From assembly GCA_903925075.1 (NCBI GenBank), contig CAIYDQ010000351.1, positions 1 through 64,000 on the forward strand: a stretch of 64,000 nucleotides of DNA, read 5' to 3'. Below the pieces are notes generated by a model that was not told the origin of the DNA, made no database searches, and saw only the letters and a list, made by a program, of their open reading frames with translations. This DNA is from an uncultured Geobacter sp. (GTDB lineage Bacteria > Desulfobacterota > Desulfuromonadia > Geobacterales > Geobacteraceae). Numbering within the stretch: the stretch's first letter is position 1; each line of letters begins with the position of its first letter. This document shows positions 36,207 to 51,263 of this stretch, one piece after another. The translations under genes and the position numbers were made by a program.

Positions 36207-36234
36207 TAAAGCTTTTCCCATGTCGAGCCGATAA
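36207..36234 (+). promoter_or_regulatory. sigma-28 promoter for the first flaG
   Basis: TAAAGCTT (36207-36214), 12 bases, GCCGATAA (36227-36234). The start codon of flaG is 41 bases further on. It lies within the 250-base divergent gap between maf and flaG. Confidence 0.8.
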
Positions 36235-36274
36235 GCGGTAACTGCGGGGCAGCTGCTTCACGGAGGACGATAAC

Positions 36275-36655
36275 ATGGCTATAAATTCTATGCAAGGGAT
36301 AACTCAGGCCCAGACGGCCAAGGTGGGGGGCGTGGAGCAGGACAAGCGCCCCGAGGCGCAGCCGCCGGTGAAGTCGTTGATTTACAAAGAGGCGCCTTCC
36401 CTCGAGGCAAGAAACAAGGCCGCCGCTTTGCAGCAGGAGCGGGTGCAGGAAGCCGCCCGGCAGCTCAATAACTTCATGAAGATCGTCTCAGTGGGCCTGC
36501 ACTTCACCGTGGACGCGGACACCAAGCAAACCGTGGTCAAGGTGATCAACAAGGAGACCGGCGAGGTGATCAGGCAGATCCCCAGCGAAGAGGCGCTGAG
36601 ACTCTCCAAGGCGATGGATACCCTGCAGGGCTTGATCATTCAGCAAACAGTGTGA
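36275..36655 (+). CDS. flaG: FlaG family flagellar protein (copy 1)
   Basis: A 126-residue FlaG protein. The C-terminal FlaG domain is clear: FTVDADTKQTVVKVINKETG, then EVIRQIPSEEALRLSKAMD. FlaG is linked to filament length and flagellin modification or stability in polar flagellates; its biochemical role is not settled. CGGAGGA precedes the ATG. It has its own sigma-28 promoter and stands apart from the fliD operon. A paralogue of identical length is at 53542. Confidence 0.92.
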   Translation: MAINSMQGITQAQTAKVGGVEQDKRPEAQPPVKSLIYKEAPSLEARNKAAALQQERVQEAARQLNNFMKIVSVGLHFTVDADTKQTVVKVINKETGEVIRQIPSEEALRLSKAMDTLQGLIIQQTV

Positions 36656-37125
36656 CGGTCGGCCGAAAACCTCCAGAAAGGACTTCATTCGTTGGCGCCC
36701 GGTCTGTCCGGGGGGAGCGAAAGAGCGACCCCGGCGCCTCGTCCAGCCCGGTGCAGGTCGGCGCAGCTCTGCGCTTGGGCTGAAAAAAGCCGGTCCGTTG
36801 CCGGCGATTGCGTCGTCATGCCAGTTTCCAAACACCCTCCGTCATTTCCGACTCCCCCCCCAATCCGATGGCCGCTTAAGCGCATGAAACCATCGGCTCC
36901 GGCTTCCCGGCCCGACGCCCCTGCCGACAGCGCCGCTACGGCAAGCGGGACGAGAAGGTTGTATTTACACGGTAAAAACCTACATAATGGAATCGCCCTG
37001 ACCAGGGCGGGTTTGTGGCAGTAGAGGCCATAAGCGACGTCCAAGCGGCGATAGATGCAGTCTGGGCCGGGGCGGGCGAGGCGGCTTGCCGGCTTCGCTC
37101 GGCCGGTACTCGGCGGGAGTTAGCT
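36656..37125 (+). other. gap between flaG and the OGT gene, candidate promoter
   Basis: About 470 bases without a convincing gene. A possible sigma-70 pair is TTGTAT (36959-36964) and CATAAT (36983-36988) with 18-base spacing, upstream of the OGT start. The OGT reading frame is open back to 37015 but without similarity or a ribosome site. No terminator-like stem was seen after flaG. Confidence 0.35.
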
Positions 37126-39303
37126 ATGCAACAGGATATTAACGGTTTAGTGCAGCTGTTCAACGAGCGGCGCTTCGCCGAGGTAGAACAATTGGCGAGG
37201 GAAATCACGGAGAGTTCTCCCGGCAACGGCCTCGGCTGGAAAGTGCTGGGAGCAAGCCTGCTTGCCCAGGGGCGCACCCTGGAATCCCTGGAACCGCTCC
37301 GAAAAGCTGCGGCGCTTCTGCCGGGAGACGCCGGAGCCTATAACAACCTGGCGATAACCCTCAAGGAGCTGGGACGGCTTGCCGAGGCCGAGGCGCACTA
37401 CCGTCTGGCGCTCCGGATCAAGCCGGATTTCGCCGATGCGCTCAGCAACTTGGGCAATGTTCTCAAGGATCTGGGGCGACCGGAGGAGGCCGAGGCTTTC
37501 TGCCGCCAAGCCCTGGCGGCAAGGCCCGATTTCGCCGAGGCGCATGGAAACCTGGGGAACGCGCTCAAGGATCAGGGGCGGTTGCAGGAGGCGGAAGTCT
37601 GCTACCGGCGGGCGCTGGAGCTGAAACCGGAGATGGCCAAGGCCCACTCCAATCTGGGTCTCGACCTGGCCGACCAGGGGCGTCTGGAGGAGGCGCGGGA
37701 CTGCCTGCGCCGGTCGCTGCAACTCAATCCGCAGGCGCCCGGGGTCGAAGACAGCCTGGGCGATGTCCTCAAGGAATTGGGGCGGCCGGAGGAGGCGGAG
37801 GCCTGCTACCGGCGAGCGCTGGAACTGAGGCCCGACTGCCACGAGTCGCAGAACCTGCTGGGAAACTCACTGATGGATCAGGGGCGCCTGCAGGAGGCGG
37901 CCGACTGTTATCGTCGGGCGCTGCGGTTAAAGCCGACCTTCCCCGCCGCCTGGAACAATCTCGGCAACGCCCTGAAGGATCAGGGAAACTTGGAGGAGGC
38001 CGAGTCCTGCTATCGGTTGGTGCTGCAAATAAAGCCGGATTTCGCCGAGGCGCAGAGTAACCTCATCTTTACCCTGCAGAGCATGGCGGGTCGGCAGGCC
38101 TCGGAATGCTTCGCCGAAGCCTGCAAGTACGGAAACATGGTGGCGGAAAAGGTCGAGAAGCGGTATGCGAGTTGGCAGTGCGGCGCGCACCCGGAGCGGC
38201 TTCGGGTAGGTTTGGTCTCGGGAGATCTGCGCGAGCACCCGGTCGGCTTCTTTTTGCAGGGCGTGCTGTCGGCCATCGACCCGGCGCGCATCGAACTGGT
38301 AGCCTATGCCACCAGTCGTCTCGCCGACCGGATGACGGCCCGGCTCAGGCCGTTTTTCGCGCAGTGGAACGTGCTGGCCGAGCTGTCGGACGAGGGAGCC
38401 GCAGCGCGGATCCACGCCGACGGCGTGCACCTGCTGCTGGACCTTTCCGGGCATACCTCCCACAGCAGACTGCCGGTATTCGCCTGGCGCCCAGCGCCGG
38501 TCCAGGTGAGCTGGCTAGGCTATTTCGCCACTACCGGGATGGCCGAGATGGATTACCTGCTCGCCGACCGCGTCGGGGCACCCGAGTCGCACCGGGAAGG
38601 CTTTACCGAAAAACTCTGGCGCCTCCCCGAGACCAGGATCTGTTTCACCCCTCCCGAGGTCGAGCTGGCGGTCGCCGATCTCCCCGCCCTGGCGTCGGGC
38701 GCCGTCACCTTCGGCTGCTTTCAGAATTGGTTCAAGGTCGGGGAGCAGGTGCTTGAGCTCTGGGGGGAGGTGCTGTCGGCCCTGCCGGGCTCCAGGCTTC
38801 GCCTGCAGTGCGGGCAATTGGCGGACTCGCAGGCGGTGGAGGAGGCGGTCGAACGGCTGCGGCGCTGCGGCATAGATCCAGAGAGGGTCTCCTTTCATGG
38901 CGCCATGACGCTGGAGGGGTATCTGGCCGCCCACGCCGAGGTGGATCTCATCCTGGACACCTTTCCCTTTCCGGGGGGAACCACCACCTGCCAGGCGCTC
39001 TGGATGGGCGTGCCGACGCTGACGCTGGCCGGCGACACCCTGCTTTCCCGGCAAGGGGCGAGCCTGATGAGCGCAGCGGGGCTGCCGGATTTCGTGGCGC
39101 AGAGCAAAGAGGATTACCTTGAGAGGGCGATCGCCCTGGCCGGCGATCTGCCGAAGCTGGCCCGGCTGCGCGCCGGATTGCGGCGGCAGGTGCTGGCCTC
39201 GCCGCTCTTCGACGCCCGCCGTTTCGCGCGCCATCTCGAGGACGCCTTGTGGGGGATGTGGCGGGAAGCGGGAGGCGCGGCGAGCGGTAGAGGGGGAGTC
39301 TAG
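37126..39303 (+). CDS. TPR-containing O-GlcNAc-transferase-like (SPINDLY-type) glycosyltransferase
   Basis: A 725-residue fusion. Residues 1-320 hold eight or more tetratricopeptide repeats, for example AEAHYRLALRIKPDFADALS. The C-terminal part is a GT41 catalytic domain with LRVGLVSGDLREHPVGFFL, LLLDLSGHTSHSRLPVFAWR and FPFPGGTTTCQALWMGVPTL, the UDP-binding region of OGT. Such proteins O-glycosylate Ser/Thr on proteins, including flagellins and adhesins. Start ATG 37126 has GGGAG upstream. The stop overlaps the convergent GH57-like gene by 3 bases. Being beside maf, it suggests a second glycan route in the same island. Confidence 0.9.
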   Translation: MQQDINGLVQLFNERRFAEVEQLAREITESSPGNGLGWKVLGASLLAQGRTLESLEPLRKAAALLPGDAGAYNNLAITLKELGRLAEAEAHYRLALRIKPDFADALSNLGNVLKDLGRPEEAEAFCRQALAARPDFAEAHGNLGNALKDQGRLQEAEVCYRRALELKPEMAKAHSNLGLDLADQGRLEEARDCLRRSLQLNPQAPGVEDSLGDVLKELGRPEEAEACYRRALELRPDCHESQNLLGNSLMDQGRLQEAADCYRRALRLKPTFPAAWNNLGNALKDQGNLEEAESCYRLVLQIKPDFAEAQSNLIFTLQSMAGRQASECFAEACKYGNMVAEKVEKRYASWQCGAHPERLRVGLVSGDLREHPVGFFLQGVLSAIDPARIELVAYATSRLADRMTARLRPFFAQWNVLAELSDEGAAARIHADGVHLLLDLSGHTSHSRLPVFAWRPAPVQVSWLGYFATTGMAEMDYLLADRVGAPESHREGFTEKLWRLPETRICFTPPEVELAVADLPALASGAVTFGCFQNWFKVGEQVLELWGEVLSALPGSRLRLQCGQLADSQAVEEAVERLRRCGIDPERVSFHGAMTLEGYLAAHAEVDLILDTFPFPGGTTTCQALWMGVPTLTLAGDTLLSRQGASLMSAAGLPDFVAQSKEDYLERAIALAGDLPKLARLRAGLRRQVLASPLFDARRFARHLEDALWGMWREAGGAASGRGGV

Positions 39304-41273
39304 TCGGGGTTCTTCAGGAAGGCGTCGATGGTGATGCGCGCCCTGAACGGCTGGGCGCGGCGCTTGGGTTTGCTGGTCTCGTCCATCTCGGAGGCGCTGA
39401 AGCTCAGGCGGAAAAAGTACGAGGAGCCGACCGGCCGTGAGGTGACCAGTCCCAAAAGGGTGCTGAGCGAGCGATCCACCCGCAGGCGCAGCGCCTTGCG
39501 GGCGTCGCCGATCTCGACCACCCCCTCGGTGACGCCCATCCCCTGCTTGGCGGAGACCAGGAAGGAGGTGGCCTCGCCGTGGGAGATGGCCTTGGCCGCC
39601 ACCGGGAAAGTCTCGGCTTCGCGGCCGCCGTTGTGGGTGCGAAAGTACAGCGACGACAGGTCGAAGGCCTCCGGGTTGAGCGTGACGTGTCCCAGGCGCA
39701 GGGATCCGACCGGGATCGCCGGCCAGTCGAGCAGGTAATCGATGCTGACCTGGCTTAGCCGCGGGTCGATGGAAAGCTGCTTGGTCACCTCGCCAAGCGG
39801 CGTCGACAAGGTGGCGGTGATGGTCAGGATGCCCTGCTCGGGGTGCCAGCTAAGCTGCGGGGCCACCGGCGAGAGGTCGGTCACCTTGGGGCGGCCGTGG
39901 GTCTCGAAGACCAGGTGTCCGGTATAGAAGTCGGCGCCGGTGGTGATGTCGTCGAAATAGCCGTGCGGCAGCGTGCCGCAGAGGCTCTCCTGCTGGATTC
40001 CGGGAAAGGAGAGCGATTCCAGGGCCAGGCCGCGGCGCAGGTTCAAGCGCAGCTCAAGTCCGGGGGTGCTCACCGAGAGATAGCGCCCGCCGTCGCGCAG
40101 CACCACGATCTCCGGCGGGAGCGTCTCCGCATCTCCCCCGACGGCCAGCAACCCGGGGGGGGCGGTTTGCTTTACGCGGCAAAAGCTCTGCAAGCGGCTG
40201 CGGTAGCGCTGCCAGCGGCGGGGCGTGATGTGGGTGCGGAAATCGCTGCTCCAGAGGTAGCAGAGTTCGCGCCAATCGAGGTCGGAGGCGTCGCCGGCCT
40301 TAACCAGCGCGTCGTGCAGCCGCTGGCATGCCGAGTTGATGCCGACGTCGTCCCGGCCGGTGACCGCCCAGCGGGTGACGTTGTATTTTTCCTGCTTCTT
40401 CACCGGGATCGGCGCCACGGAAGACTCCAGGCTCAGCCGGTTGCCGCCCCCCTCGCTCGCCAGCAGGGCGAGCAGAGCCGAGGGCGCGACCAGGGTGAAG
40501 CTCGGGTCGCCCGCCAACTTCTCCATCAGCTTCCTGATCCGTCCCCACTCGTCCTTCGCCATGGCCGCTTCGGTGATGAACCTCCCCGGCCTGAAGTCGA
40601 AAATCTCCACGTCGTTGCCGTAGACCGGAAAGGCGCGCTTGCTGCCGTCGTCGTGCCTGGCGATCAGCTTGAGATACTCGTCGAGTTCCAGTTCGCCGTG
40701 GGTGTAGCGCTGGAATTTCTGGAAGGCGATGGAGTTGTTCCAGATCACCGGCAGCTCCTCGCCGTGCTGTCCCACGGCGATCTGCGGCAGGTATCGCCAC
40801 TGCGGCTGCCAGTCGGGGTGGTTGTAGGCGGGGTTGTCCCACTCCATGACCACCCCCCGGTAGCCGGCCTCCAGGTAATGGCCGAGGAGCCCCGCCGAAT
40901 AGGCCTGCTCGTTCACCAGGGCGATCGCCGGCTGCAACCCCAGCAAGGAGCGGTAAACGGCGTTGCCCAGCCTCAGGTTCTGCCGGTTCACCTCAGCCGG
41001 CACCAGCGGGCCGATCAACTGGGCGTAGCCGGAACCGATCAGCTCGCATTTGCCGGCGCCGCACAGCTCGCCCAGCTCCGCGATCCAGGCGGGGTCGAGG
41101 GCCGCCACCGTTTCCAGCGTGAAGCCGGTGGCCTCGATGCCGAAGGGGAGATCCAGCTCGCGCGCCAGGCGCAGCAGAGGCCAATAGCAGCGGCGGATCA
41201 CTTCCGGACGCTGCTCCTCCTCAATGGAGGAGAAGGCGATGTTCAGATGGAATATGGCGTAAAGGGAGAGCAT
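39300..41273 (-). CDS. glycoside hydrolase family 57-like protein
   Basis: A 657-residue protein. The N-terminal about 300 residues resemble the (beta/alpha)7 barrel shared by GH57 and polysaccharide deacetylases: YAIFHLNIAFSSIEEEQRP, GKCELIGSGYAQLIGPLVP, GYRGVVMEWDNPAYN and PVYGNDVEIFDFRPGRF. The C-terminal half is beta-rich, as in GH57 accessory domains. The likely substrate is an alpha-glycan or polysaccharide, but being last in the pse operon suggests a role in glycan processing; neither is shown. The ATG at 41273 begins the barrel; the ribosome site is only fair. Confidence 0.7.
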   Translation of the reverse strand: MLSLYAIFHLNIAFSSIEEEQRPEVIRRCYWPLLRLARELDLPFGIEATGFTLETVAALDPAWIAELGELCGAGKCELIGSGYAQLIGPLVPAEVNRQNLRLGNAVYRSLLGLQPAIALVNEQAYSAGLLGHYLEAGYRGVVMEWDNPAYNHPDWQPQWRYLPQIAVGQHGEELPVIWNNSIAFQKFQRYTHGELELDEYLKLIARHDDGSKRAFPVYGNDVEIFDFRPGRFITEAAMAKDEWGRIRKLMEKLAGDPSFTLVAPSALLALLASEGGGNRLSLESSVAPIPVKKQEKYNVTRWAVTGRDDVGINSACQRLHDALVKAGDASDLDWRELCYLWSSDFRTHITPRRWQRYRSRLQSFCRVKQTAPPGLLAVGGDAETLPPEIVVLRDGGRYLSVSTPGLELRLNLRRGLALESLSFPGIQQESLCGTLPHGYFDDITTGADFYTGHLVFETHGRPKVTDLSPVAPQLSWHPEQGILTITATLSTPLGEVTKQLSIDPRLSQVSIDYLLDWPAIPVGSLRLGHVTLNPEAFDLSSLYFRTHNGGREAETFPVAAKAISHGEATSFLVSAKQGMGVTEGVVEIGDARKALRLRVDRSLSTLLGLVTSRPVGSSYFFRLSFSASEMDETSKPKRRAQPFRARITIDAFLKNPD

Positions 41274-41302
41274 TGGATCGAAGGTCCCTCGCGCGCCGGC
41301 GG

Positions 41303-42094
41303 TCAGCCGAGGGCGCTGCCGCCGCCGGCGAGCCAGCCGCCGTCGGCGTAAATGGTTTGTCCCTGGATGTAGCTTGCCGCCCGCGAGGCGAGAAACACGG
41401 CGATCCAGGAGATTTCCTCCGGGGTGGCGGCATAGCCCGCCGGGATCAGTCTCAGGAAGCTGTCGCGAACGGCGTCGTCGCTGAAGAGGTCCTCGGTCAT
41501 CCGGGTCCTGATCCGCCCCGGACCGATGCTGTTGACGTTGATCCCGTGTTTGGCCCACTCCACGGCGAGCGATTTGGTGAGCTGCTTGATGGCGCCGCGG
41601 CTGGAGGCGTAGGGGGCGATGTTGGGGATGCCGATCTCGGCGGTCAAAGAGGAGACGGTGACGATTTTACCCGAGCCGCGCGGCAGCATCAGCTTGCCGG
41701 CCGCCTGACAGCAGAGGAAGGTGCCGGTCAGATTGACCCGCAGCACCTGCTCCCATTCGGCCAGGGTGAACTCCAGGGCGGGCCTGCGCAACTGCACGCC
41801 GGCCGCGGTGACCAGGATGTCGATGGCGCCGAAGCGCTCGACGGTCCCCGCCATCAGCGCCTCCACCTGCGCGGGATCGGTGACGTCGGCGGGCGCGATC
41901 AGCACCTTGGAGTCGTCGCACTCCAGCGTGGCGCGGGCGGCCGCCAGGCGCTCGGCGCTACGGGAGCTCAGCACCAGATTGGCCCCCGCCGCCAGCATGG
42001 CCCGGGCAATGGCGGCGCCGATGTCGCCTCCCGCCCCCGTTATAACGGCGGTCTTGCCGGCCAGCGAAAAGATCTCCGAAAAAAGGGCCGTCAT
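41303..42094 (-). CDS. short-chain dehydrogenase/reductase with Arg at the catalytic Lys position
   Basis: A 263-residue classical SDR. The Rossmann signature is TGAGGDIGAAIA near residue 19, and NNAG-equivalent is TAAG. Catalytic Ser148/149 and Tyr162 are present, but the residue four after the tyrosine is Arg166 (sequence YASSR), where nearly all active SDRs have Lys. Sequence resembles gluconate 5-dehydrogenase/KduD-type enzymes. It begins 10 bases after the next SDR stop, within the pse operon. Probably acts on a sugar intermediate or is a regulatory/partner subunit. Confidence 0.85.
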   Translation of the reverse strand: MTALFSEIFSLAGKTAVITGAGGDIGAAIARAMLAAGANLVLSSRSAERLAAARATLECDDSKVLIAPADVTDPAQVEALMAGTVERFGAIDILVTAAGVQLRRPALEFTLAEWEQVLRVNLTGTFLCCQAAGKLMLPRGSGKIVTVSSLTAEIGIPNIAPYASSRGAIKQLTKSLAVEWAKHGINVNSIGPGRIRTRMTEDLFSDDAVRDSFLRLIPAGYAATPEEISWIAVFLASRAASYIQGQTIYADGGWLAGGGSALG

Positions 42095-42104
42095 GGTCTG
42101 CCGC

Positions 42105-42890
42105 CTATTCCTGGCAATGCGCCCCCCACCATGCCGACTTGGTCCAGCCTCCGTCCACCACCAGCTGCTGGCCGTTGATGTGCCTGGCTTCCGCGGAAAC
42201 CAGGTAGGCGATCAACGAGGCCACGTCGTCGGTCTCCCCGATTCTGGCGGTGGGGGTGCGCCCGGTCATGCCGCTCTCCACCTCGGGGCTTTGCCCGAGA
42301 AACCAGGAGGTGCGCGGCGTCCTGATCGGCCCGGGCGCCACGGCGTTGACGGTGATGCCGAACCTGCCCCATTCCACCGCCAGGGCGCGGGTGATCCCTT
42401 CCACCCCCGACTTGGCGGCGTTGTAGGCGAGCCGGTTGGGATAGGTCGCCACGTTGTGAAAACTGGTCATGTTGACGATCCTGCCGTAGCGCCGGTCGAG
42501 CATGGGGAGGGCGAAAGTTTTGCAGCTGAGAAAGGCGCCGTCCAGGTCGGTGTCGAGCACCCCGCGCCAGTCGGCGTAACTGAGCTCCTCCGATTTGCCG
42601 GCCGCGGCGGGCGCCGCGGCGCAGGTCACCAGGATGTCGATGGCGCCGTGGCTCTGCAAAACCGCCTCCCGGACGGCGATCAGCGACTGCTCGTCGCGCA
42701 CGTCGCACAGGTGATGCGCCGCGGTCAGCCCCTCCGGGTCGAGCTGCGCCGCCACTTGGGCCACTTGCCCTTCGGAGCGGGCCAGCAGGTGCACCCGCGC
42801 GTTCAGCCGGTGCAGGTAGGCCGCCACCGCCGCGCCGATGCCGCTGCCGGCGCCGGTGATAACCGCTACCTTGCCGCTTAGATCTGACAT
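42105..42890 (-). CDS. short-chain dehydrogenase/reductase
   Basis: A 261-residue classical SDR with TGAGSGIGAAVAAYL as cofactor loop (acidic/basic choice unclear), and an intact YNAAKSG catalytic tyrosine-lysine pair after a MTS serine. The C-terminal GQQLVVDGGW is typical of sugar and acyl reductases of this group. AAGGAGATC precedes the ATG. It is translated between the IolB-like gene and the second SDR. A sugar oxidation/reduction in glycan precursor synthesis is inferred from location. Confidence 0.87.
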   Translation of the reverse strand: MSDLSGKVAVITGAGSGIGAAVAAYLHRLNARVHLLARSEGQVAQVAAQLDPEGLTAAHHLCDVRDEQSLIAVREAVLQSHGAIDILVTCAAAPAAAGKSEELSYADWRGVLDTDLDGAFLSCKTFALPMLDRRYGRIVNMTSFHNVATYPNRLAYNAAKSGVEGITRALAVEWGRFGITVNAVAPGPIRTPRTSWFLGQSPEVESGMTGRTPTARIGETDDVASLIAYLVSAEARHINGQQLVVDGGWTKSAWWGAHCQE

Positions 42891-42932
42891 GAGATCTCCT
42901 TCCGTTGCAGTTTTTTTGCCGGCCCTTCCCGG

Positions 42933-43502
42933 TCAGACTTTTTCCCATTGCGGCTTCTTGGCGAGATAGGCCCAGACGTAGGCGACCTTCACGTGCGGCT
43001 CGCCGACCACCGGGTGGTATCCCATGGGAATGGTGCTGAAGGTCCGGTCCGCAACCAGCCAAGCCTCGTCCACCGGGGTGTTGTCGGCCCACACCCCGCG
43101 CCCCAGTTGCACCGCTCGCCCGCTTCCCCCCTGAAGGATGTGGAAGAACACCTCTTCGAAATCCGGTTCCAGGTCGAGTTCGAACGGATGCGGCAGGCTG
43201 GACCAGGTGCCGGCGCCGGAGTGCACCGTGATCCCCAGGCGCAAGGTCGGCGCAGGTCCGTTCGGCTTGAGGAAGTGATAGACGTCCCGCTGCCAATTCG
43301 ACTCGCCCACCACGATATGGTAGGCATCCTTGGCGAGAATCTCGCTGCTCGCCCCCTTGGCGTGGCAGACCACCCGCTGGATGTTGCCGTCTTGCAAATA
43401 CACCTCGGCGCGTTCCTGCTCGCTTTCGAAACGCAGCACGTCGTTGCTGCCGCTCACCTGCAGGGTCTGCAGGCGGTTGGCGTTACTCCACTGGTAGAAC
43501 AT
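42933..43502 (-). CDS. IolB/KduI-like cupin isomerase
   Basis: A 189-residue cupin resembling 5-deoxy-glucuronate isomerase (IolB) and the pectin-pathway isomerase KduI. The telling stretches are DLEPDFEEVFFHIL (Glu and His metal ligands) and FSTIPMGYHPVVGEPHVKVAYVW, matching the conserved PxGYHPVV of IolB. It is shorter than IolB (about 270), so the second cupin half is partly missing. KduI works with an SDR (KduD) in hexuronate breakdown; here two SDRs follow directly, in a sugar-nucleotide operon. The true substrate is unknown. Confidence 0.65.
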   Translation of the reverse strand: MFYQWSNANRLQTLQVSGSNDVLRFESEQERAEVYLQDGNIQRVVCHAKGASSEILAKDAYHIVVGESNWQRDVYHFLKPNGPAPTLRLGITVHSGAGTWSSLPHPFELDLEPDFEEVFFHILQGGSGRAVQLGRGVWADNTPVDEAWLVADRTFSTIPMGYHPVVGEPHVKVAYVWAYLAKKPQWEKV

Positions 43503-43581: not shown

Positions 43582-44685
43582 TCAGATGCAGTCCACCGCC
43601 CCCCGGTCGATGGAGGCGAGCACGGCGGCGAACAACGAGGGATTGCGGTAGGCGAAGTGTGCGTGCCAGAGGTCCAGGTCGAGCTCCCGGCCAAGCGCCA
43701 GCTTGATGGCGCCGCCGACGAAATCGGCGCCGCGCGCCGGCGTGCTGGCGGAACTGTCCCAACCTCCGGAAAGCCTGGGGGTCAACTCGATGATGTAGGG
43801 GCCGCGCTCGGTAAGCATGATGTCGGCCTTCAAGATATGGCCGCCGCGCTGCTTGTCCATGCCGATGGCCACGCCCGCCCGGTACACCATCTCCACCACC
43901 TGCTGCCAGGTGCGGTGGTCGTGCAGCGCGGGGTTGAGGTGGCCGATCTCCACCGCCCACGAGGTGTCGGCGTAGAGCTCCTCGCCGCGAAGTGAGGAAA
44001 AGCCCAGGGCGTCGTTGCGGAACAGGCGGTCGACCCAGTTGAGAAAATACATCTTGCCGTCGTACCAGACCGTCTCCAGCGACTGCTCGGCGATTTCATT
44101 GGTAATCGGTGCGAGTCTCTCCTCGACGATGACCAGGCCGCTGGTGCCGGCGTCGAGCGCCGCCTCGAACATTTCCGCGCTGAGCGCGTCGGGGTCGGCA
44201 GCCACCGAAAACCCGCGGCTCCCCGAATTGTTGGTTGCCTTGATCACGCCGGGGCGGCCGAAGTCGGCCAGCAGTTGACGGGCCTCGCCCAGGTCCCTGG
44301 CGACCGCGGCGAGCGGCTGCGGCAGGTGGGCCTGGCGCAGGATGGCGCGGGTCTCCTGCTTGTAACGGCAGATATGGGCGATCTTCGGGTCCAGCGCGTT
44401 TAGCCGCAGCGAGGACGCGACCACGGCCACGGTCTCGTGGCAGTCCGCGGCCACGGCCAGCACCGCCTCGATGGCGAATTTCCCCGCCAGCGTTTGGGCG
44501 GCCTGCAGATTGCCGGCTATGTCGAAGGTGTCCAGCGCCAGCAGCTCGTCGGCGTAGCGGGCACAGTGGCAATCCGGCGAGCGGTCGCTGATGATCAGCC
44601 GATAGCCCAGCTCCTTGATCTTGATTGCCGCCGGCTCCTGCATCTGTCCGCCGGCGAAAAGCCAGACGGCCTTGTCCCTGCTCAT
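43582..44685 (-). CDS. ATP-grasp ligase-like protein
   Basis: A 367-residue ATP-grasp protein. The N-terminal domain (RLIISDRSPDCHCARYADELLALDTFD) is the Rossmann-like pre-grasp part, the middle has GVIKATNNSGSRGFSVAADPD (ATP lysine and glycine loop), and the C-terminal part has ADIMLTERGPYIIELTPRLSGG with the metal-binding Glu. Such enzymes form amide or carboxylate bonds from acyl phosphates. It sits between the methyltransferase and IolB-like genes in the pse operon. It could acylate an amino sugar in place of the missing PseH. GAGGAACACT precedes the ATG at 44685. Confidence 0.82.
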   Translation of the reverse strand: MSRDKAVWLFAGGQMQEPAAIKIKELGYRLIISDRSPDCHCARYADELLALDTFDIAGNLQAAQTLAGKFAIEAVLAVAADCHETVAVVASSLRLNALDPKIAHICRYKQETRAILRQAHLPQPLAAVARDLGEARQLLADFGRPGVIKATNNSGSRGFSVAADPDALSAEMFEAALDAGTSGLVIVEERLAPITNEIAEQSLETVWYDGKMYFLNWVDRLFRNDALGFSSLRGEELYADTSWAVEIGHLNPALHDHRTWQQVVEMVYRAGVAIGMDKQRGGHILKADIMLTERGPYIIELTPRLSGGWDSSASTPARGADFVGGAIKLALGRELDLDLWHAHFAYRNPSLFAAVLASIDRGAVDCI

Positions 44686-44693
44686 AGTGTTCC

Positions 44694-45611
44694 TCACTCG
44701 CCGCGTCTGGCGTAGATGCAGACTTCCCGGCCGATGTTCAGCTTGGCCAGGCTTTGGTACAGCTCCCTCTTCAGCGCTCCGAGCCCCGCCGCGGCGAGGT
44801 TCGACTCGAACAGTTTGCGCTTCGCGTGACAGCTTCGTCCCAGCGAGTCGTCGCCCACGTAGTTGTCCCCCATGAGCAGGAACAGATCGATGGGAAAGGT
44901 GGCTTCCTGCAGCTCCACCTGGAAGCCGCAGCGCGTCAAGAGGCGCGCCAGGGAGTCGAAATCGAAAAAATTGAGGTGATGGGGGGGGGCCACCCACCAG
45001 GGCTGGAAATTTTGCACCGTGCGCAAGGCATGCTGGAACGGGCTGTAATCGTTGGGCACCACGACGCAAAGCACCCCCCCCGGCGCCAGCTGCCTGCGCA
45101 CCAGGGTCAGGAACTCAGCCGGAGAGGAGATGTGCTCCAGCACTTCGCTCATGTGGATGACGTCGAACTTGGCGAGCTTGGCGGCGAGTTCCTCGGAGAA
45201 GAAATCCTCGATGATCTCCAGGCCCAGCTCCCTGCTGTGCGCGGCTGCCCGGGCCGACGGTTCGATCCCCAGGACTTCCCAGCCCCGCTGTTGGCCAAGT
45301 TTCAGGAAGAAGCCCGGGCCCGAGCCTATGTCGAGAATGCGCCGGCGCTCGGGGGGGAGCAACTCTTCGAAACTCTGGTAGCGGTCGGCGTAAACCAGGT
45401 TCCACCACGACAAATCCTCGGTGTAGCGCTCCAGATAGAGCGGCTTTTCCAGCGTGTAATATTCATGCCGGTAGACCTCTTCCAGCTCCTCGGGCGAAGG
45501 AATGGGAACGACGTGCTTGAAGCCGCAACAAAGGCAATCGATGACCTCGAAGCCCTTGGCGGAATCGAGTAGTTCGCCGCTGTGCTCTCCCCAGCTCTTG
45601 ATGTCAGGCAT
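44694..45611 (-). CDS. class I SAM-dependent methyltransferase
   Basis: A 305-residue methyltransferase. SAM site: ILDIGSGPGFFLKLGQQRGWEVLGIEPS near residue 92, then FDVIHMSEVLEHISSP and PGGVLCVVVPNDY. The N-terminus has a CLCCGF cysteine pair, perhaps a small zinc knuckle seen in sugar methyltransferases. It overlaps the pseF/G stop by 8 bases and so is co-translated with it. It probably methylates the nonulosonic acid or a sugar nucleotide. Confidence 0.82.
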   Translation of the reverse strand: MPDIKSWGEHSGELLDSAKGFEVIDCLCCGFKHVVPIPSPEELEEVYRHEYYTLEKPLYLERYTEDLSWWNLVYADRYQSFEELLPPERRRILDIGSGPGFFLKLGQQRGWEVLGIEPSARAAAHSRELGLEIIEDFFSEELAAKLAKFDVIHMSEVLEHISSPAEFLTLVRRQLAPGGVLCVVVPNDYSPFQHALRTVQNFQPWWVAPPHHLNFFDFDSLARLLTRCGFQVELQEATFPIDLFLLMGDNYVGDDSLGRSCHAKRKLFESNLAAAGLGALKRELYQSLAKLNIGREVCIYARRGE

Positions 45612-47385
45612 GTGACGATTCTCTCCCGTTGATGGCGTCCATAATCTTGGCGGCGGTGCGCGCCGCGCCGCGTCCGTCGAGCAGCGCGCGGGCGCGCCGG
45701 CTCATCTCCTCTCTGCGCTCGGGCGCAGCTAAAAGTTCGGCCACCGCCCGGGAGATGCGCGCCTCGCTGCACTCCTCTCCCACGCCGCAGCAGAGCGCCA
45801 GCCCGTCTTCGGTAAACCGGGAGGCGGATCGGGCGTGGTCGTCGCTTAGGCAAAGATGGACGGCAGGCACCCCGGTGGCGGCCAGCTCGTAGGCGGTCAC
45901 CCCGAAAGAGGCCACGGCCAGATCGGCTCCCCGCATCAGCGAGGCCATGTCGCGCACCTGGCGCTCGATGCGATAGAGGCGGCGCGCCGCCGCGAGGAAA
46001 TCGCCCAGCTCGGCTTCATGGACGAATCCGGGTCCGACCACCACCAGCGTCTCGAATTTCTGCGGCATGTCGTCCAGGGCGCGCAGGGCGCGCAGCGTGA
46101 AATTGGCCGGATCGCTCCCTCCCATGGTGACCAGAACCCTCGGGGGGGAGTTGCCGGGCGGGGCCGGGGCGTCGGCAAACTCCGGCCGCAGCAGCACCCA
46201 CTCCCAACCCCGACAGAGTTCTCCGGCAAAGCCGCTCCAGTCCCATTCGGCGATCTGCGGCACGGGCGGGAAAAAAGAGAGGTCGGCCTCGCGCCGTCGG
46301 GGGCCGGGGTCGTCGAGCACGACCATCAACAAGCCGCTCTTGCGCCAACTCGCCACCTGTTCCGGGTCGAGATCGTTACGCAGGTCGAGCACCATGACGT
46401 CGGGGCGCTGGCGCAGCATGACGGCGTCGATCCAGGCGGCTTCGCCGGGTCGGTCCTGCCGCTCGCAGGGGAAACCGGCCTGCCGTACCAGCTCCCAGCC
46501 CGGCTCGCCGCTTGCCATGGCGAAGAGCACGCCGCAGCCGTGCCTGTCGCGCAGCTCCCCGGCCAGCGCCAGGCAACGCACCACATGGCCAAGCCCCGTG
46601 CGGCCGTCACCGTCGCAGCGTATCAGCACCTTGCGGCTGCGGTCGGTCGCTTTCTTCTGATACACATGGCCGTTGATGGCGACCAGATCGGGACGGTCTC
46701 GGAGCAGCCGGACGACCCGGGCCATGTCCGCCTCGCCGGCGGCGACTCCCAGCAGCCGGTAGAGCTCATGGAAGAAGCGCAGGTCGGCGGGGGTGTCGAC
46801 CGACAGGCGCGCTCCTTCAAACCTGTGCTCGACGCCGATGGGAATCCTGGCGATGCGAAACTTGTCCGGATGAGCCACGAAATAGGCGGTCACATGCTCG
46901 ATCGCCGCCGGGTCGTCGCTTGCCTCGGCCAGCAGGCGCCGCAGAGCCTCGCGGGTGAAGGTGCAAAATCCCTCGTGTATGGAATGAACCCCCGCCTGGG
47001 CGGTGCAGTATTCCGCGCCCTCCAGCAAAAGGGTTTCCACCATCCGGTCCAGCGTCTCCGGGTCCAAAAGCGGCGAATCGCCGGTGACGCGGACGATCAC
47101 CCCGGCGTCGAGCTCTTCGCCGGCCTTGGCATAGCGCTGCAGGACATCGTCCTCGGCGCCGCGCACCAGTTCCACTCCCTCGCTTTTTGCGAAGGCGACC
47201 AGCGCGTCGTCGCCGGGTCGGTCCGAGGTGGCGATGGCGATGACGTCGACCGTGCGGCATTTGCGCAACCGGTGGATGATATGCCAGAGCACCGGCTTTC
47301 CCGCCAGGGGCATCAGCACCTTGCCGGGGAGGCGGGTGGAGCCCATGCGGGCCTGGATAACCGCTGCGACCCTCGGCTTAGTCAT
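45604..47385 (-). CDS. pseG: bifunctional CMP-sugar synthetase / UDP-sugar hydrolase (PseF-PseG fusion)
   Basis: A 593-residue fusion. Residues 1-230 are a cytidylyltransferase (SpsF/PseF-type) opening VAAVIQARMGSTRLPGKVLMPL and containing VTGDSPLLDPETLD. Residues about 250-560 are a PseG/SpsG-type hydrolase with IRCDGDGRTGLGHVVRCLALA (the G-x-G-H site) and VTMGGSDPANFTLRAL. PseG releases UDP from the 2,4-diamino-altrose and PseF activates pseudaminic acid with CMP, the fourth and last steps of the pathway. In Helicobacter and Campylobacter these are separate proteins. ATG 47385 has GGAGG upstream; overlaps pseI by 8 bases. Confidence 0.9.
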   Translation of the reverse strand: MTKPRVAAVIQARMGSTRLPGKVLMPLAGKPVLWHIIHRLRKCRTVDVIAIATSDRPGDDALVAFAKSEGVELVRGAEDDVLQRYAKAGEELDAGVIVRVTGDSPLLDPETLDRMVETLLLEGAEYCTAQAGVHSIHEGFCTFTREALRRLLAEASDDPAAIEHVTAYFVAHPDKFRIARIPIGVEHRFEGARLSVDTPADLRFFHELYRLLGVAAGEADMARVVRLLRDRPDLVAINGHVYQKKATDRSRKVLIRCDGDGRTGLGHVVRCLALAGELRDRHGCGVLFAMASGEPGWELVRQAGFPCERQDRPGEAAWIDAVMLRQRPDVMVLDLRNDLDPEQVASWRKSGLLMVVLDDPGPRRREADLSFFPPVPQIAEWDWSGFAGELCRGWEWVLLRPEFADAPAPPGNSPPRVLVTMGGSDPANFTLRALRALDDMPQKFETLVVVGPGFVHEAELGDFLAAARRLYRIERQVRDMASLMRGADLAVASFGVTAYELAATGVPAVHLCLSDDHARSASRFTEDGLALCCGVGEECSEARISRAVAELLAAPERREEMSRRARALLDGRGAARTAAKIMDAINGRESSHA

Positions 47386-48238
47386 GGAAATCCTCCCGCG
47401 CCTTTTTGAGAGGCCTCAGCCCGTCGCTGGGATCGGCGCGCCACTGCCGGTCGAAGAGCTCGGCGGCGGCCGGCAGCTTCTCGCCGCTGCCGTCGGCGGA
47501 AAAGCCGCCGCGCACCGCGGCGATCACTTCCGCGATCTGCTCGGGAAGCCAGCAGTGCCCCGTCTTGAACTCTTCCCCTTCCCCCTCGAGATCCAGGTGA
47601 AACTCGATCGCCGACGCGTCCCAGCGGTGCGCGGCCCGGTGGACGACGGCGGCAGACACGCTGTGGTCCGACCAGCCGACCGGGCATTGGAACGCCTGCG
47701 CCAGGGTGCGGATCGCGGCCAGGTTGCACTGCTCGACCGGAGCCGGGTAACCGGACACGCAGTGGAGCAGGGTCAAATCGAGGCAGCCGGCGGCGCGCAG
47801 CGTGGCAACCGCTCCCTCGATCTCGCCCATGGTCGCCATGCCGGTGGAAAGCACCACGGGCTTTCCGGTGCGGGCGCAGGCGTTCAACAGGTCGCCCCAG
47901 AGCAGCTCGTAGGACGCGACCTTGAAGAAATCGACGTGCGGCAGCAGTTCCTCAACCGCCTGCAGATAGAACGGGGTGCAGGAGAACTGGATGCCGCGCT
48001 CCCGGCAGCGGGAAGCCAGCGGCGGGAGAAACTCCACCGGCAGCTCCCATGCCTTGCGGGCGCGCAACTCGGGGCGCTTCTCCAGGACCTCCCCGGCGAA
48101 CAGCTCCTCGATGCGAAAAAGTTGGAATTTTACCGCGTCGCAGCCGACCTCGGCCGCGACATCGATGAAGCGAAAACAACGCTCCAAGTCGCGGTGGTGG
48201 TTGCTGGATACTTCGGCGATGAAGACCGGTTTAGCCAT
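47378..48238 (-). CDS. pseI: NeuB/PseI-type nonulosonic acid synthase, short form
   Basis: A 286-residue aldolase-type synthase that condenses phosphoenolpyruvate with a 6-deoxy-diamino sugar to give a nine-carbon acid. The TIM-barrel motifs are FIAEVSSNHHRDLERCFRFID, DAVKFQLFRIEEL, CTPFYLQAVE, VVLSTGMATMGEIEGAV and CPVGWSDHS. The C-terminal SAF (antifreeze-like) domain of NeuB and PseI is missing: the protein ends just after SDGLRPLKKAREDFHD, about 50-60 residues short. Short forms exist, so it is probably still functional. Starts at ATG 48238, overlapping the pseC end by 8 bases, with AAAAGGAAG upstream. Confidence 0.88.
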   Translation of the reverse strand: MAKPVFIAEVSSNHHRDLERCFRFIDVAAEVGCDAVKFQLFRIEELFAGEVLEKRPELRARKAWELPVEFLPPLASRCRERGIQFSCTPFYLQAVEELLPHVDFFKVASYELLWGDLLNACARTGKPVVLSTGMATMGEIEGAVATLRAAGCLDLTLLHCVSGYPAPVEQCNLAAIRTLAQAFQCPVGWSDHSVSAAVVHRAAHRWDASAIEFHLDLEGEGEEFKTGHCWLPEQIAEVIAAVRGGFSADGSGEKLPAAAELFDRQWRADPSDGLRPLKKAREDFHD

Positions 48239-49421
48239 GGCACGCTTCCTTTTGCGCCGGGGCGACGCCGAGCGTCTCCCTGAGCGCTTCCGCGACCTGG
48301 TCCTGCTCGGCGTCGCTCATGGCCGGGAACAGGGGGATGGTCATGATCTCCCGATAATACGCCTCGGCTTCGGGGAAGTCCCCCTCGGCGAAGCCGAGCG
48401 CTCGATAGTAGGGCTGGGTATGCACCGGGATGTAATGCACGTGCGCCGTGATCCCCCGTCCCCGCATTTCCTCGAGGATGGCGCGGCGGCTCTTCCCCAG
48501 CGCGTGCGTGTGCAGGCGGATCACATAGAGGTGAAAGGCGGAAAAGGCGTCCGGGTGCTGCCGGGGAAGGGTGAGCGGCAGGCCGTCGAGCAACTGCCGG
48601 TAGCGCTTGGCCAGGTACTGGCGCCGCGCCACGAACTCGTCCAGCATCGCCATCTGGCTTGCCCCCAGGGCCGCCTGGATGTCGGTCATCCGGTAGTTGA
48701 AGCCCAGCTCGATCTGCTCGTAGTACCACGGACCGTGCGGCTCGCCCTTCATGCGGGCGGGATCGCTGGTGATGCCGTGGCTCCTGAGCCGCACCAGCCT
48801 TTCCGCCAGGGCGGAGCTGTTGCAAAGCACCATGCCCCCTTCGCCGGTGGTGATGATTTTCACCGGGTGGAAGCTGAACACGGTCATGTCGGAGTAGCGG
48901 CAGTTGCCGAGCGGTTGGTCCTGGTAGCGGCCGCCGATGCCGTGGGAGGCGTCCTCGATCACCCGGAAACCGTAGCGCTTCGCCAGGCGGGCGATCCCCT
49001 CCATGTCGCAGGATTGGCCGGCGAAATGGACCGGGATCACGATCTTGGGGAGTTTTCCCTCGGACTCGGCCCGCTCCAGTTTTTCTTGCAGGCGCTCGAC
49101 GCTCATGTTGTAGCTGACGGGATCGATGTCGACGAAATCGACGGACGCGCCGCAGTAAAGGCCGCAATTCGCCGAGGCCACGAAGGTGTTGGGCGAGGTC
49201 CAGAGGCGGTCTCCGGGACCAAGCCCCGCCGCCAGGCAGGCGATGTGCAGGGCAGAGGTGGCGCTGTTCACCGCGACGGCATGGCCTGCGCCGCAGTAAT
49301 CGGCGACGCTGGCCTCGAACCGCTGCACGGTGGGACCCTGGGTCAACCAGGTCGATTTGAGGACTTCGAGAACCGCCTGTATGTCGGCATCGCTGATCGA
49401 CTGCCGTCCGTATGGGATCAT
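48231..49421 (-). CDS. pseC: UDP-4-amino-4,6-dideoxy-N-acetyl-beta-L-altrosamine transaminase
   Basis: A 396-residue PLP-dependent DegT-type aminotransferase that transfers an amino group to C4 of the UDP-keto sugar from PseB. Family segments: YGRQSISDADIQAVLEVLKS, VAVNSATSALHIACLA, ASHGIGGRYQDQPLGNC and FSFHPVKIITTGEGG, where the lysine of HPVK forms the PLP Schiff base. Its start overlaps the upstream coiled-coil gene stop by ATGA. It is the second pathway step. Confidence 0.93.
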   Translation of the reverse strand: MIPYGRQSISDADIQAVLEVLKSTWLTQGPTVQRFEASVADYCGAGHAVAVNSATSALHIACLAAGLGPGDRLWTSPNTFVASANCGLYCGASVDFVDIDPVSYNMSVERLQEKLERAESEGKLPKIVIPVHFAGQSCDMEGIARLAKRYGFRVIEDASHGIGGRYQDQPLGNCRYSDMTVFSFHPVKIITTGEGGMVLCNSSALAERLVRLRSHGITSDPARMKGEPHGPWYYEQIELGFNYRMTDIQAALGASQMAMLDEFVARRQYLAKRYRQLLDGLPLTLPRQHPDAFSAFHLYVIRLHTHALGKSRRAILEEMRGRGITAHVHYIPVHTQPYYRALGFAEGDFPEAEAYYREIMTIPLFPAMSDAEQDQVAEALRETLGVAPAQKEACHG

Positions 49422-49909
49422 GATGGGTCCGGCTCCCTCACACCGTAAATGACCTGATGCGCATGGGGATCGGCACGGTGAGCGGCAAGCTCGTCTGCTA
49501 TCTTGTCGATTTTCACTGAAAGATTCGATTCCACCCGATCCAGTTTCTCGGACAGCGCAAGATGGCCTTCGGCAATGAGAGCTATTTTATAATCGAAGCT
49601 CTCCACCATGACGCCGATATGACGTTCAAATTTCTCTTCCTGTTCGGCAAACCGTTCTGCAATTCGTCGGTCTTGATCGATGAATTGTTGCGCCACCGAG
49701 GCGAATTGACCATCGATTTTGGCAAACTGACCGTCAATCTTGTCGAACTGACTGTCAATCTTGGCAAACTGACCGTCAATCTTGGCAAACTGACCGTCAA
49801 TCTTATCGAACTTCTCGTCTATCTTGTCGAACTTCTCGTCTATCTTGACAAATTGTTCGGTTATCTTGCCAAATTGCTCTACCAGGAAAGCTCTGTCGCT
49901 AGCGTCCAT
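49418..49909 (-). CDS. heptad-repeat coiled-coil protein
   Basis: A 163-residue protein of unknown function. The first 90 residues are perfect or near-perfect seven-residue repeats of the form KIDEKFD or KIDGQFA, running about nine units, followed by a second coiled segment with LALSEKLDRVESNLSVKIDKIADEL. DNA in this part repeats in 21-base units. No membrane segment or catalytic motif. AGGAGGGGAAA precedes the ATG, and its end overlaps pseC by 4 bases. It is inserted between pseB and pseC in an otherwise enzymatic operon, so it may be a scaffold for the pathway, or a passenger. Confidence 0.75.
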   Translation of the reverse strand: MDASDRAFLVEQFGKITEQFVKIDEKFDKIDEKFDKIDGQFAKIDGQFAKIDSQFDKIDGQFAKIDGQFASVAQQFIDQDRRIAERFAEQEEKFERHIGVMVESFDYKIALIAEGHLALSEKLDRVESNLSVKIDKIADELAAHRADPHAHQVIYGVREPDPS

Positions 49910-49934
49910 TTTCCCCTCCTGTTCGCTGTTGTCG

Positions 49935-50948
49935 TCAGGCCGGGACGAAGTTCCGATCTACGTGCTCCACCATCAGCCGGCGCAGTTCTGCAACGCTCAA
50001 CCACTCGTCGTTGCTGCCGCTGTTGTAGGCGAAATCGTCGGGGCAGGGAGTGCCGTCGAAGGCTTGGGCGAAGGCCTGCACGTCCCAAAGCGGTATCGAC
50101 GGGAGGATCACGAAGTGGCGTTCGAATTGCAGCGAATTGATGGCGTCGGTGGCGGTAATCATCTCCTCGTGCAGTTTTTCGCCGGGCCGGATGCCGACCA
50201 GGGAGAGGCGGCAACCCGGCGCGATGGCCTCGGCCACGTCGGTGATGCGGTAGCTGGGGATCTTGGGGACGAAGATCTCGCCCCCCCACATGTCGGCTAA
50301 GGCCTTCAGGACCAGAGCCACGCCGTCGGCGAGTGTGATGTTGAAGCGCGTCATCCGCTCGTCCGTGATGGGAAGGACCCCTTCGGACCTTTTATTGAGG
50401 AAGAAGGGAATGACGCTGCCGCGGCTCCCCATGACGTTGCCATAGCGCACCACCGAGAACTTGATGTCCCGCTTCCCCTTGAAGTTGTTGGCGGCGACGA
50501 AAAGCTTGTCGGAACAGAGCTTGGTGGCGCCGTAGAGGTTGATGGGCGCGGCCGCCTTGTCGGTGCTCAAGGCCACTACCTTGCTGACGCCGTTGTCCAT
50601 GGCCGCTTCGATCAGGTTCTGGGCGCCCAGCACGTTGGTTTTGATCGCTTCGAAGGGGTTGTATTCGCAGGCCGGGACTTGTTTGAGCGCCGCTGCGTGC
50701 ACGACGATATCGATCCCCTGCAAGGCGCGGTTCAGCCGGTCGCGGTCGCGCACGTCGCCGATGAAATAACGCAGCTGCTTGAACTTCTCGGGCGGGAATT
50801 GCTGGGCCATCTCGGACTGTTTCAACTCGTCGCGGGAAAAGACCACGACGCGGGTGATGTCGGGGTACTGCAGCAGTATGGTTTCCACGAATTTCTTGCC
50901 AAAGGAACCGGTACCGCCGGTAACGAGCAGGGACTTGCCTGTTAGCAT
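49935..50948 (-). CDS. pseB: UDP-N-acetylglucosamine 4,6-dehydratase (inverting)
   Basis: A 337-residue extended SDR, the first pseudaminic-acid enzyme, removing water from UDP-GlcNAc with inversion at C5. NAD loop: LVTGGTGSFGKKFVETIL. The catalytic stretch STDKAAAPINLYGATK has the Asp-Lys-Tyr triad typical of the inverting PseB group; GNVMGSRGSVIPFF follows. The ATG at 50948 has AAGAGGAAATC ahead; the frame is open upstream to 50978 without support. A sigma-70 promoter lies about 250 bases upstream. First gene of the pse operon. Confidence 0.94.
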   Translation of the reverse strand: MLTGKSLLVTGGTGSFGKKFVETILLQYPDITRVVVFSRDELKQSEMAQQFPPEKFKQLRYFIGDVRDRDRLNRALQGIDIVVHAAALKQVPACEYNPFEAIKTNVLGAQNLIEAAMDNGVSKVVALSTDKAAAPINLYGATKLCSDKLFVAANNFKGKRDIKFSVVRYGNVMGSRGSVIPFFLNKRSEGVLPITDERMTRFNITLADGVALVLKALADMWGGEIFVPKIPSYRITDVAEAIAPGCRLSLVGIRPGEKLHEEMITATDAINSLQFERHFVILPSIPLWDVQAFAQAFDGTPCPDDFAYNSGSNDEWLSVAELRRLMVEHVDRNFVPA

Positions 50949-51263
50949 GATTTCCTCTTTTCGGTGAGGGAGAGACAAAAGGTCTCGGCCCGCCTGGAAA
51001 CAGCAACTGCCATGCCAAAATCACCGATCGGGGGGCGGCGGCGCGAAAAGATGTGGAGCCGAGCGGCTGGAATGGTGAAAAGAGCCGTGGTCGGAGCCGG
51101 CTAAGGCGGTTGGCGCTAGCTGGCGTCTTTGCGGGGCGCCGTGCGGATTGTTCCAGGGGGAACGCCGTAGCCACGCGCTGCACGCTGCCGCAGGGCTTCG
51201 AAGTTTAGTGCGCCGCCCCGGAAAAGTCAAAAGTTTGAAACCGGGGCCGCTTGCCGGCGTTGG
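50949..51263 (-). other. leader region of the pse operon
   Basis: A 315-base gap between the motB end and the pseB start. Apart from the promoter at 51202-51230 and the palindrome beside it, I see no gene. The predicted 5-prime leader is about 250 bases, long for a simple ribosome site. No convincing riboswitch fold was recognised. Confidence 0.4.
51202..51230 (-). promoter_or_regulatory. sigma-70 promoter for the pse operon with overlapping palindrome
   Basis: On the minus strand TTGACT (51225-51230) and TAAACT (51202-51207) are separated by 17 bases. The -35 box is half of the palindromic GTCAAAAGTTTGAA at 51226-51239 (plus strand), so a repressor there would block it. Confidence 0.6.

Follow-up and report, generated by a model that had tools for sequence, protein, structure and literature searches.

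How is a flagellar sugar acylated when the operon that makes it has no gene for the expected acetyltransferase? Flagellar nonulosonic acids influence motility and immune recognition, and the N-acyl group is a main respect in which they differ. The canonical pathway to the pseudaminic acid (Pse) Pse5Ac7Ac is PseB-C-H-G-I-F (Campylobacter, Helicobacter). The stretch analysed here, 64,000 nucleotides of uncultured Geobacter sp. DNA (contig CAIYDQ010000351.1, positions 1 to 64,000; hereafter the window), carries a pseudaminic acid-type operon without the acetyltransferase PseH and with an ATP-grasp protein, a cupin, two short-chain dehydrogenases/reductases (SDRs) and a methyltransferase. We put it at an even chance, or slightly better, that this operon makes a CMP (cytidine monophosphate)-activated, Pse-like flagellin sugar in which one amino group bears a polyhydroxy (sugar-acid) acyl group instead of acetyl. 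This is the best-supported reading; it rests on comparative genomics and on one chemical precedent, the sfm system of Shewanella oneidensis, and the acceptor amine, step order and acyl identity are what we infer. A PseH-less, ATP-grasp-bearing flagellin nonulosonate operon is already known, exemplified by sfm, and the window holds a variant of it.

Operon content and the absence of PseH

The operon runs on the minus strand from 50978 (PseB) to 39300 (a GH57-like protein), and every gene named in the first-pass annotation is present. The genes are listed in order, with profile scores and cut-offs.

49935..50978 (-), PseB, UDP-GlcNAc 4,6-dehydratase (inverting); TIGR03589 518.7 bits, cut-off 407.75
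49418..49909 (-), repetitive coiled-coil-like protein, 163 aa, between PseB and PseC
48231..49421 (-), PseC aminotransferase; TIGR03588 556.9 bits, cut-off 423.5
47378..48238 (-), short NeuB/PseI-type synthase, 286 aa, without a SAF match; PF03102 211.4 bits
45604..47385 (-), fused cytidylyltransferase (PseF role) and PseG-like UDP-sugar hydrolase, 593 aa; PF02348 103.3 bits, TIGR03590 128.6 bits
44694..45611 (-), S-adenosylmethionine-dependent methyltransferase, 305 aa; PF13489 99.0 bits
43582..44688 (-), ATP-grasp carboxylate-amine ligase-like protein; PF02786 23.7 bits, cut-off 19.8
42933..43502 (-), short KduI/IolB-family cupin, 189 aa; PF04962 54.9 bits, cut-off 23.9
42105..42890 (-), SDR1 (YxxxK); PF13561 192.8 bits
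41303..42094 (-), SDR2, KduD-like (YxxxR instead of YxxxK); PF13561 217.6 bits, TIGR01832 205.0 bits, cut-off 338.85
39300..41282 (-), GH57-like protein; PF03065 48.3 bits

Genes for the PseB, PseC, PseG, PseI and PseF functions, which the first-pass annotation had found readable, were confirmed as present, with PseB and PseC over their cut-offs and the other three below their equivalog cut-offs. The NeuB/PseI-type synthase scored 177.1 bits for NeuB (cut-off 399.65) and 168.9 for PseI (340.25), and the fusion protein scored 128.6 for PseG (153.55) and 19.9 for PseF (205.7). Despite the low PseI and PseF scores, the NeuB and cytidylyltransferase Pfam families were clearly matched. Pfam likewise upheld the ATP-grasp protein, KduI/IolB cupin, methyltransferase and two SDRs, the KduD-like SDR2 falling below the KduD cut-off.

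PseH (TIGR03585) had no match at E ≤ 0.001 across the whole genome (6.55 Mb, 99.97% complete, draft assembly of 368 contigs), a lenient threshold at which 13/14 control genomes gave matches. tblastn of 15 PseH-like proteins against the window also gave no match at E ≤ 0.001. The earlier statement that the operon lacks PseH was thus borne out and holds genome-wide for this model and threshold. A scan of ten operon proteins found no acetyltransferase family; general GNAT proteins from the rest of the genome were outside its scope. Both negatives speak against an alternative that we consider unlikely, namely that an unrecognised acetyltransferase gives ordinary Pse5Ac7Ac while the ATP-grasp, cupin and SDR genes decorate another position or a second residue. 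Such an enzyme may be among the GNAT proteins elsewhere in the genome, and the PseH model scores candidates weakly, only 3/395 genomes exceeding its cut-off though 61 match at 1e-8.

Ligase-associated modules in related genomes

Relatives of the ATP-grasp protein (E ≤ 1e-10) occurred in 21/395 genomes of the phylum (own included). Loci were fetched from 19 of the 20 other genomes (all but G380) and from genome G028, and together with the window these made 21 loci. A carbon-skeleton enzyme of one class was present in 18 of them. This included a KduI/IolB module in six (the window, L035, L036, L040, L041 and L043), a transketolase module in seven (L037, L038, L039, L042, L047, L050 and L053), a transaldolase module in three (L045, L046 and L054) and a DXS-like module in two (L044 and L052), the last being also of transketolase fold and cross-matched by transketolase queries. 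All 18 additionally had an SDR or zinc alcohol dehydrogenase match, and none matched any of the 15 PseH-like proteins at E ≤ 0.001. The other three loci (L048, L049 and L051) yielded no skeleton enzyme.

For comparison, of 15 loci in which a PseH-like gene lies near PseC, one (L246, transketolase) had a skeleton enzyme and two had an SDR match. The difference in skeleton enzymes (18/21 versus 1/15) was significant (Fisher test, P = 3e-6) and persisted when each host family was counted once (11/14 versus 1/13, P = 3e-4), with the qualification that the module queries were drawn from ATP-grasp loci and could overlook different enzymes in PseH loci, and that three PseH loci are under 10 kb. In this sample, the ligase plus acid module excludes PseH. 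The GH57-like proteins (e.g. L041 11322-13349) were similarly distributed, occurring in 17/21 ATP-grasp loci and 0/15 PseH loci. PF04962 was searched for in seven genomes, six picked for their cluster plus Treponema denticola, and those six each had exactly one copy, adjoining the ATP-grasp gene; the L040 cupin had been overlooked by the open reading frame (ORF) caller.

The same separation was apparent around PseC, which exceeded its cut-off in 58/395 genomes (own included). Within 21 kb of PseC on the same contig, an ATP-grasp gene was found in 12 of these, a PseH-like gene (E ≤ 1e-8) in 15 and both in none (hypergeometric P = 0.017), while 31/58 had neither by these criteria; the 15 PseH-like genes include weak and fragmentary ones, and only two score above the PseH cut-off. 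Within genus g21, one genome (G358) has PseH, a 366-aa NeuB and a Maf of the window type (locus L234), whereas another (G376) has ATP-grasp, transketolase, flagellin and a 286-aa NeuB (L037). This within-genus contrast speaks for replacement of PseH in a flagellar setting. Genus g169 gave a weak contrast, G310 having a PseH-like gene beside PseC without a NeuB match in its locus (L244) and G247 an ATP-grasp gene with a DXS-like enzyme; G247 also has a PseH-like match on another contig. As a separate observation, G376, besides its ATP-grasp cluster, carries a PseC-like match with two in-frame TGA codons (G376:C1:390172-391065).

Close relatives of the operon were patchily distributed. Of 38 relatives searched, G028 alone (same order, different family) had a close copy of the ATP-grasp protein (78% identity), and its locus, L035, resembles the window in the cupin (87%), SDR1 (87%) and SDR2 (81%) as well. 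Seven further relatives had ATP-grasp matches of ≤28% identity (E 2.4e-13 or weaker). The 18 congeners had neither a close ATP-grasp copy nor the cupin, and the short cupin occurred in 2/277 genomes of the class (own included); we claim no transfer route. The 305-aa methyltransferase had 48-54% identical proteins in eight of the fetched loci (blastp).

An alignment of 16 ATP-grasp homologues contained 25 invariant columns, and the corresponding profile matched solved ATP-grasp enzymes, best of all 4dim, deposited as phosphoribosylglycinamide synthetase, and 3vot, an L-amino acid ligase (E 2.5e-43). As a lone query, the window protein gave weak matches to RimK-like, lysine-biosynthesis, PurD-like and PurK-like chains. 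Since the solved relatives are mostly carboxylate-amine ligases or their kin, amide formation is the expected chemistry; the protein is placed by its sequence in the carboxylate-amine ligase fold group, with amide formation on an amino sugar as its predicted reaction.

A tree of 19 ATP-grasp proteins is split by skeleton-enzyme type rather than by host family. Three module labels (KduI, transketolase and transaldolase) required 2 changes, the lowest number possible, a value reached by 0/200 shuffles, although near-copies favour such counts and the window pair sits on a long branch. On the same tree, host-family labels (three families, 11 rows) required 4 changes, and 36/200 shuffles were as low. 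The transaldolase-associated ligase of G392 (family f63) grouped with that of G296 (f95, also transaldolase) at 100/99, apart from four KduI-associated ligases of f63, and a branch with 99/98 support had the six KduI ligases and those of L048 and L051 on one side and every transketolase, transaldolase and DXS ligase of the tree on the other. With three long rows added, the module labels required 3 changes (0/200 shuffles as low).

This match between ligase and module bears on the possibility, which we hold to be quite improbable, that the ATP-grasp protein joins an amino acid or another ready-made carboxylate while the cupin and SDRs make a separate sugar. L-amino acid ligases are among the best solved relatives, 3/21 ATP-grasp loci have no skeleton enzyme that we could find, and the type B flagellin glycosylation region of Clostridioides difficile has an ATP-grasp gene, with sulfonated peptidylamido-glycans mentioned in the discussion passage available to us (PMC5207246). 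The tracking of skeleton-enzyme type by the ligase tree points the other way, as does the outer moiety of the S. oneidensis sugar, which, from the sections of that report at hand, appears nitrogen-free.

Returning to the sugar-acid reading, the swap of the module for other central-carbon enzymes in related operons suggests that flagellar sugar diversity arises through changes to the home-made acid. More tentatively, and with a somewhat less than even chance in our estimate, flagellar nonulosonates may form a combinatorial family with interchangeable acyl cassettes. PseH would give way to one constant line of ATP-grasp ligases, evolving together with a central-carbon enzyme that differs between clusters and supplies a sugar acid for this purpose: a KduI/IolB cupin, a split transketolase, a transaldolase, or a DXS-like or IlvB-like thiamine pyrophosphate (TPP) enzyme. 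The window would then represent an uncommon type, with two SDRs and a cupin whose metal site is reduced. A ligase route with a made-to-order carboxylate would explain large, so far unexplained flagellin masses such as those of S. oneidensis, allow genome-based predictions of glycan mass and provide enzymes for modified pseudaminic acids.

Predicted sugar and comparison with known systems

In the proposed route, PseB and PseC would produce a UDP-4-amino sugar, and the cupin and two SDRs a hexonic or 3-deoxyhexonic acid through KduI/KduD-like chemistry, an acid that a methyltransferase may O-methylate. The ATP-grasp protein would activate this acid with ATP and attach it to the 4-amino group, which becomes N7 in the finished sugar, in the role of PseH, and the fused PseF-PseG, short NeuB and Maf would complete and transfer the sugar. 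The first-pass annotation had likewise proposed 4-N-acylation with a non-acetyl group by the ATP-grasp enzyme, the SDR/cupin pair supplying the donor or a further modified sugar. The absence of PseH, the ligase fold, module co-occurrence, the ligase tree and the sfm-type product agree with that proposal; its acceptor and acyl group stay at the level of prediction, and the window ligase has an early stop. On a 274.1165 Da core, the calculated flagellin increment would be 452.16 (hexonic) or 436.17 Da (3-deoxyhexonic), and 466.18 or 450.19 Da when O-methylated, versus 316.13 Da for Pse5Ac7Ac.

The cupin is the genome's sole PF04962 match at E ≤ 0.001 and scored only 48.9 of 205 bits against the IolB equivalog, far under the cut-off. 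In KduI/IolB isomerases, HxH...E...H is the metal site. Compared to full-length relatives, the first His, the Glu and the GYHPV His are kept, while the second His of HxH is replaced in both the window and L035. A structure prediction for the cupin (mean predicted local distance difference test score 47.8) was not used. In the portion of PMC3578941 available to us, an Erwinia chrysanthemi isomerase converts 5-keto-4-deoxyuronate and Escherichia coli KduI is described as similar to it; KduI is further hypothesised to turn galacturonate or glucuronate into tagaturonate or fructuronate, which KduD may reduce. By analogy, either route could yield a hexonic acid, and a 3-deoxyhexonic acid if a second keto reduction follows. 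The window resembles these uronate enzymes, and IolB, in pairing a PF04962 cupin with a KduD-like SDR in one operon; it differs in that the cupin is short, has one HxH His replaced and lies below the IolB cut-off, SDR2 lies below the KduD cut-off, and the operon is for a flagellar glycan.

With the canonical Pse5Ac7Ac pathway, the window shares PseB and PseC equivalogs, PseG-like, NeuB-like and cytidylyltransferase functions, and a nearby Maf and flagellin. It differs in the absence of PseH, in the sub-cut-off PseF-PseG fusion, in a NeuB without a SAF match, and in the extra ATP-grasp, cupin, two SDRs and methyltransferase. The SAF domain is absent from the window, L035 and L037 synthases and retained in L036 and L041, and the 14 NeuB frames measured in PseH loci span 344-382 aa. 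A short NeuB may be a sign that the synthase accommodates a bulkier substrate; this is no rule, as ATP-grasp loci with a long NeuB exist. SfmA of S. oneidensis is given as 290 aa in the sections of PMC3765264 at hand.

Those sections describe sfmABCDE as encoding NeuB-type, TPP, SDR, methyltransferase and ATP-grasp proteins, in a genome without clear orthologues of PseH, PseG, PseI and PseF (PMC3765264). Flagellin serines carry a 274 Da, mono-N-acetyl Pse-like core (oxonium ion C11H19N2O6+) with an outer moiety of +236, 250 or 264 Da (C9H16O7, C10H18O7 or C11H20O7), judged to be nitrogen-free and O-methylated (PMC3765264). This product is of the kind that the sugar-acid reading predicts, and its single N-acetyl (274 rather than 316 Da) argues against the unrecognised acetyltransferase. 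Both the window and sfm have a short NeuB-type protein (290 aa in S. oneidensis), an SDR, a methyltransferase and an ATP-grasp gene near maf, and no clear PseH; unlike the window, sfm has an IlvB-like TPP enzyme, one SDR and a 395-aa methyltransferase, the two being compared by description in the same sections rather than by sequence. No TPP enzyme was found among the window operon proteins, where the cupin is present instead.

The C. difficile type B region offers a looser parallel, having the ATP-grasp carboxylate-amine ligase CDR20291_0245 in a flagellin glycosylation region (PMC5207246). The same passage names FemAB-like, ornithine cyclodeaminase-like and FdtB-like aminotransferase proteins and contains no nonulosonate pathway or sugar-acid module. 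Within the open-licence PMC literature, the best matches included no paper joining KduI/IolB with flagellin or pseudaminic acid, which does not imply absence in print; pseudaminic acid, ATP-grasp and flagellin came together only in PMC3765264, PMC5207246 and PMC6321876. The available parts of PMC7371886 and PMC13317340 mention no ATP-grasp route, and transketolase appeared among the best matches listed in a single mention, on central metabolism.

The flagellin sugar of T. denticola is reportedly 450 Da and bears a 2-methoxy-4,5,6-trihydroxyhexanoyl group, that is, a methylated 3-deoxyhexonyl; it would share its composition with the O-methyl 3-deoxyhexonyl product calculated above. A gene-level link of this species to KduI/KduD chemistry was rejected, its genome having no PF04962 match and, in the 20 kb read, no acyl module beside NeuB. 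Without such a cupin, its 450 Da sugar is a chemical precedent at most. In a search of T. putidum and its genus (8 genomes), the best ATP-grasp gene, whose context was read in T. putidum only, did not lie in a nonulosonate cluster. The mass of the T. denticola sugar is given as 450.2 Da in the excerpt of PMC9481697 available to us.

Several of our results count against a sugar-acid ligase route. Maf or flagellin lies near 14/20 fetched ATP-grasp loci and only 2/15 PseH loci, which are mostly non-flagellar, so that the mutual exclusion may reflect cluster purpose rather than replacement. In two ATP-grasp loci without a skeleton enzyme, L049 and L051, the ligase gene has a PseH-like neighbour no more than 2 kb away (scores of 52.9 and 41.3 bits against a cut-off of 93.1), which also favours the unrecognised acetyltransferase; exclusion of PseH is therefore not a property of the whole ATP-grasp family. 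Neither locus has a NeuB, Maf or flagellin match, so the two may belong to clusters for other sugars. The KduI ligases are not established as one clade, a single clade being not rejected (approximately unbiased test, P = 0.30). A probable metal ligand is missing from the window cupin, and YxxxR replaces YxxxK in SDR2; L035 shows the same two changes, and activity may be altered. The genome G428, which we take to be T. denticola ATCC 35405, gave the negative PF04962 result above, with no acyl module beside NeuB in the 20 kb read. Finally, S. oneidensis mutants in sfmA-D had flagellins that migrated like unmodified protein, whereas with the ATP-grasp gene sfmE mutated the shift was slightly smaller and filament and swimming were retained, according to the sections at hand (PMC3765264). 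A simple acyl-making model predicts an equal result for sfmB-E, and the weaker sfmE phenotype fits late decoration, as in the acetyltransferase alternative.

The last such point is the early stop. An in-frame TGA (43582-43584) ends the window ATP-grasp frame ~33 codons before that of its 78%-identical L035 relative, which the frame continues to resemble past the stop. Either the protein is truly cut short beyond its conserved core, or the TGA is a sequence error. A broader version, that the glycosylation island is decaying here with the ATP-grasp step inactive, or that its stops are sequence errors, seems to us very unlikely as the account of the operon. It is consistent with a second stop, a TAG in the CgeB-like frame beside Maf, both frames reading on plausibly past the stop, and with the absence of the cupin from all 18 congeners. 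Set against it, the TGA costs only the ~33 last residues, past the conserved ATP-grasp core, the remaining operon frames are open, and the assembly is a draft of 368 contigs.

Flagellar setting and neighbouring genes

The flagellar genes identified by family search all lie, with a second methyltransferase, on one side of the operon.

33508..36276 (-), Maf-type flagellin glycosyltransferase with MptE-like domain; PF01973 146 bits
31586..32266 (-), CmcI-like O-methyltransferase; PF04989 97.3 bits
28125..28952 (+), flagellin, likely glycan acceptor; PF00669 144.3 bits, PF00700 89 bits

The CmcI-like methyltransferase that the first-pass annotation had reported is real, but it falls outside the range which that annotation covered. 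Further ORFs, named by eye without family search, are read as FliD, FliS, FlaG and MotA/MotB and round out the flagellar setting.

Apart from the coiled-coil-like gene, the operon genes have a GC content of 0.61-0.69, close to that of the flanks (0.62-0.64), and composition is therefore uninformative on horizontal transfer. The coiled-coil-like gene differs (GC 0.484) and contains a 21-bp repeat array of 7 copies; no ORF was called at the matching place in L035. A class-III aminotransferase, often accompanied by a GFO/IDH oxidoreductase (an aldo/keto reductase in L035), recurs in both kinds of cluster, in eight ATP-grasp loci (L035, L036, L040, L041, L043, L045, L046 and L054) and six PseH loci (L239, L240, L242, L243, L244 and L247), and is not in the window operon.

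Beside Maf, the CgeB-like glycosyltransferase-like frame (32281-33471, minus strand) has its in-frame TAG at 32782-32784 and reads as plausible protein before and after it. The initial part of the frame matched no Pfam family at E ≤ 1e-6, and we assigned the CgeB label ourselves. A tetratricopeptide repeat protein with a glycosyltransferase family 41 (OGT-like) domain (37015-39303, plus strand) adjoins the operon and is possibly a second flagellin glycosyltransferase. Two paralogous genes read as FlaG-like (36275-36655 and 53542-53922, plus strand) flank the glycosylation/mot region and are identical at 62/126 positions.

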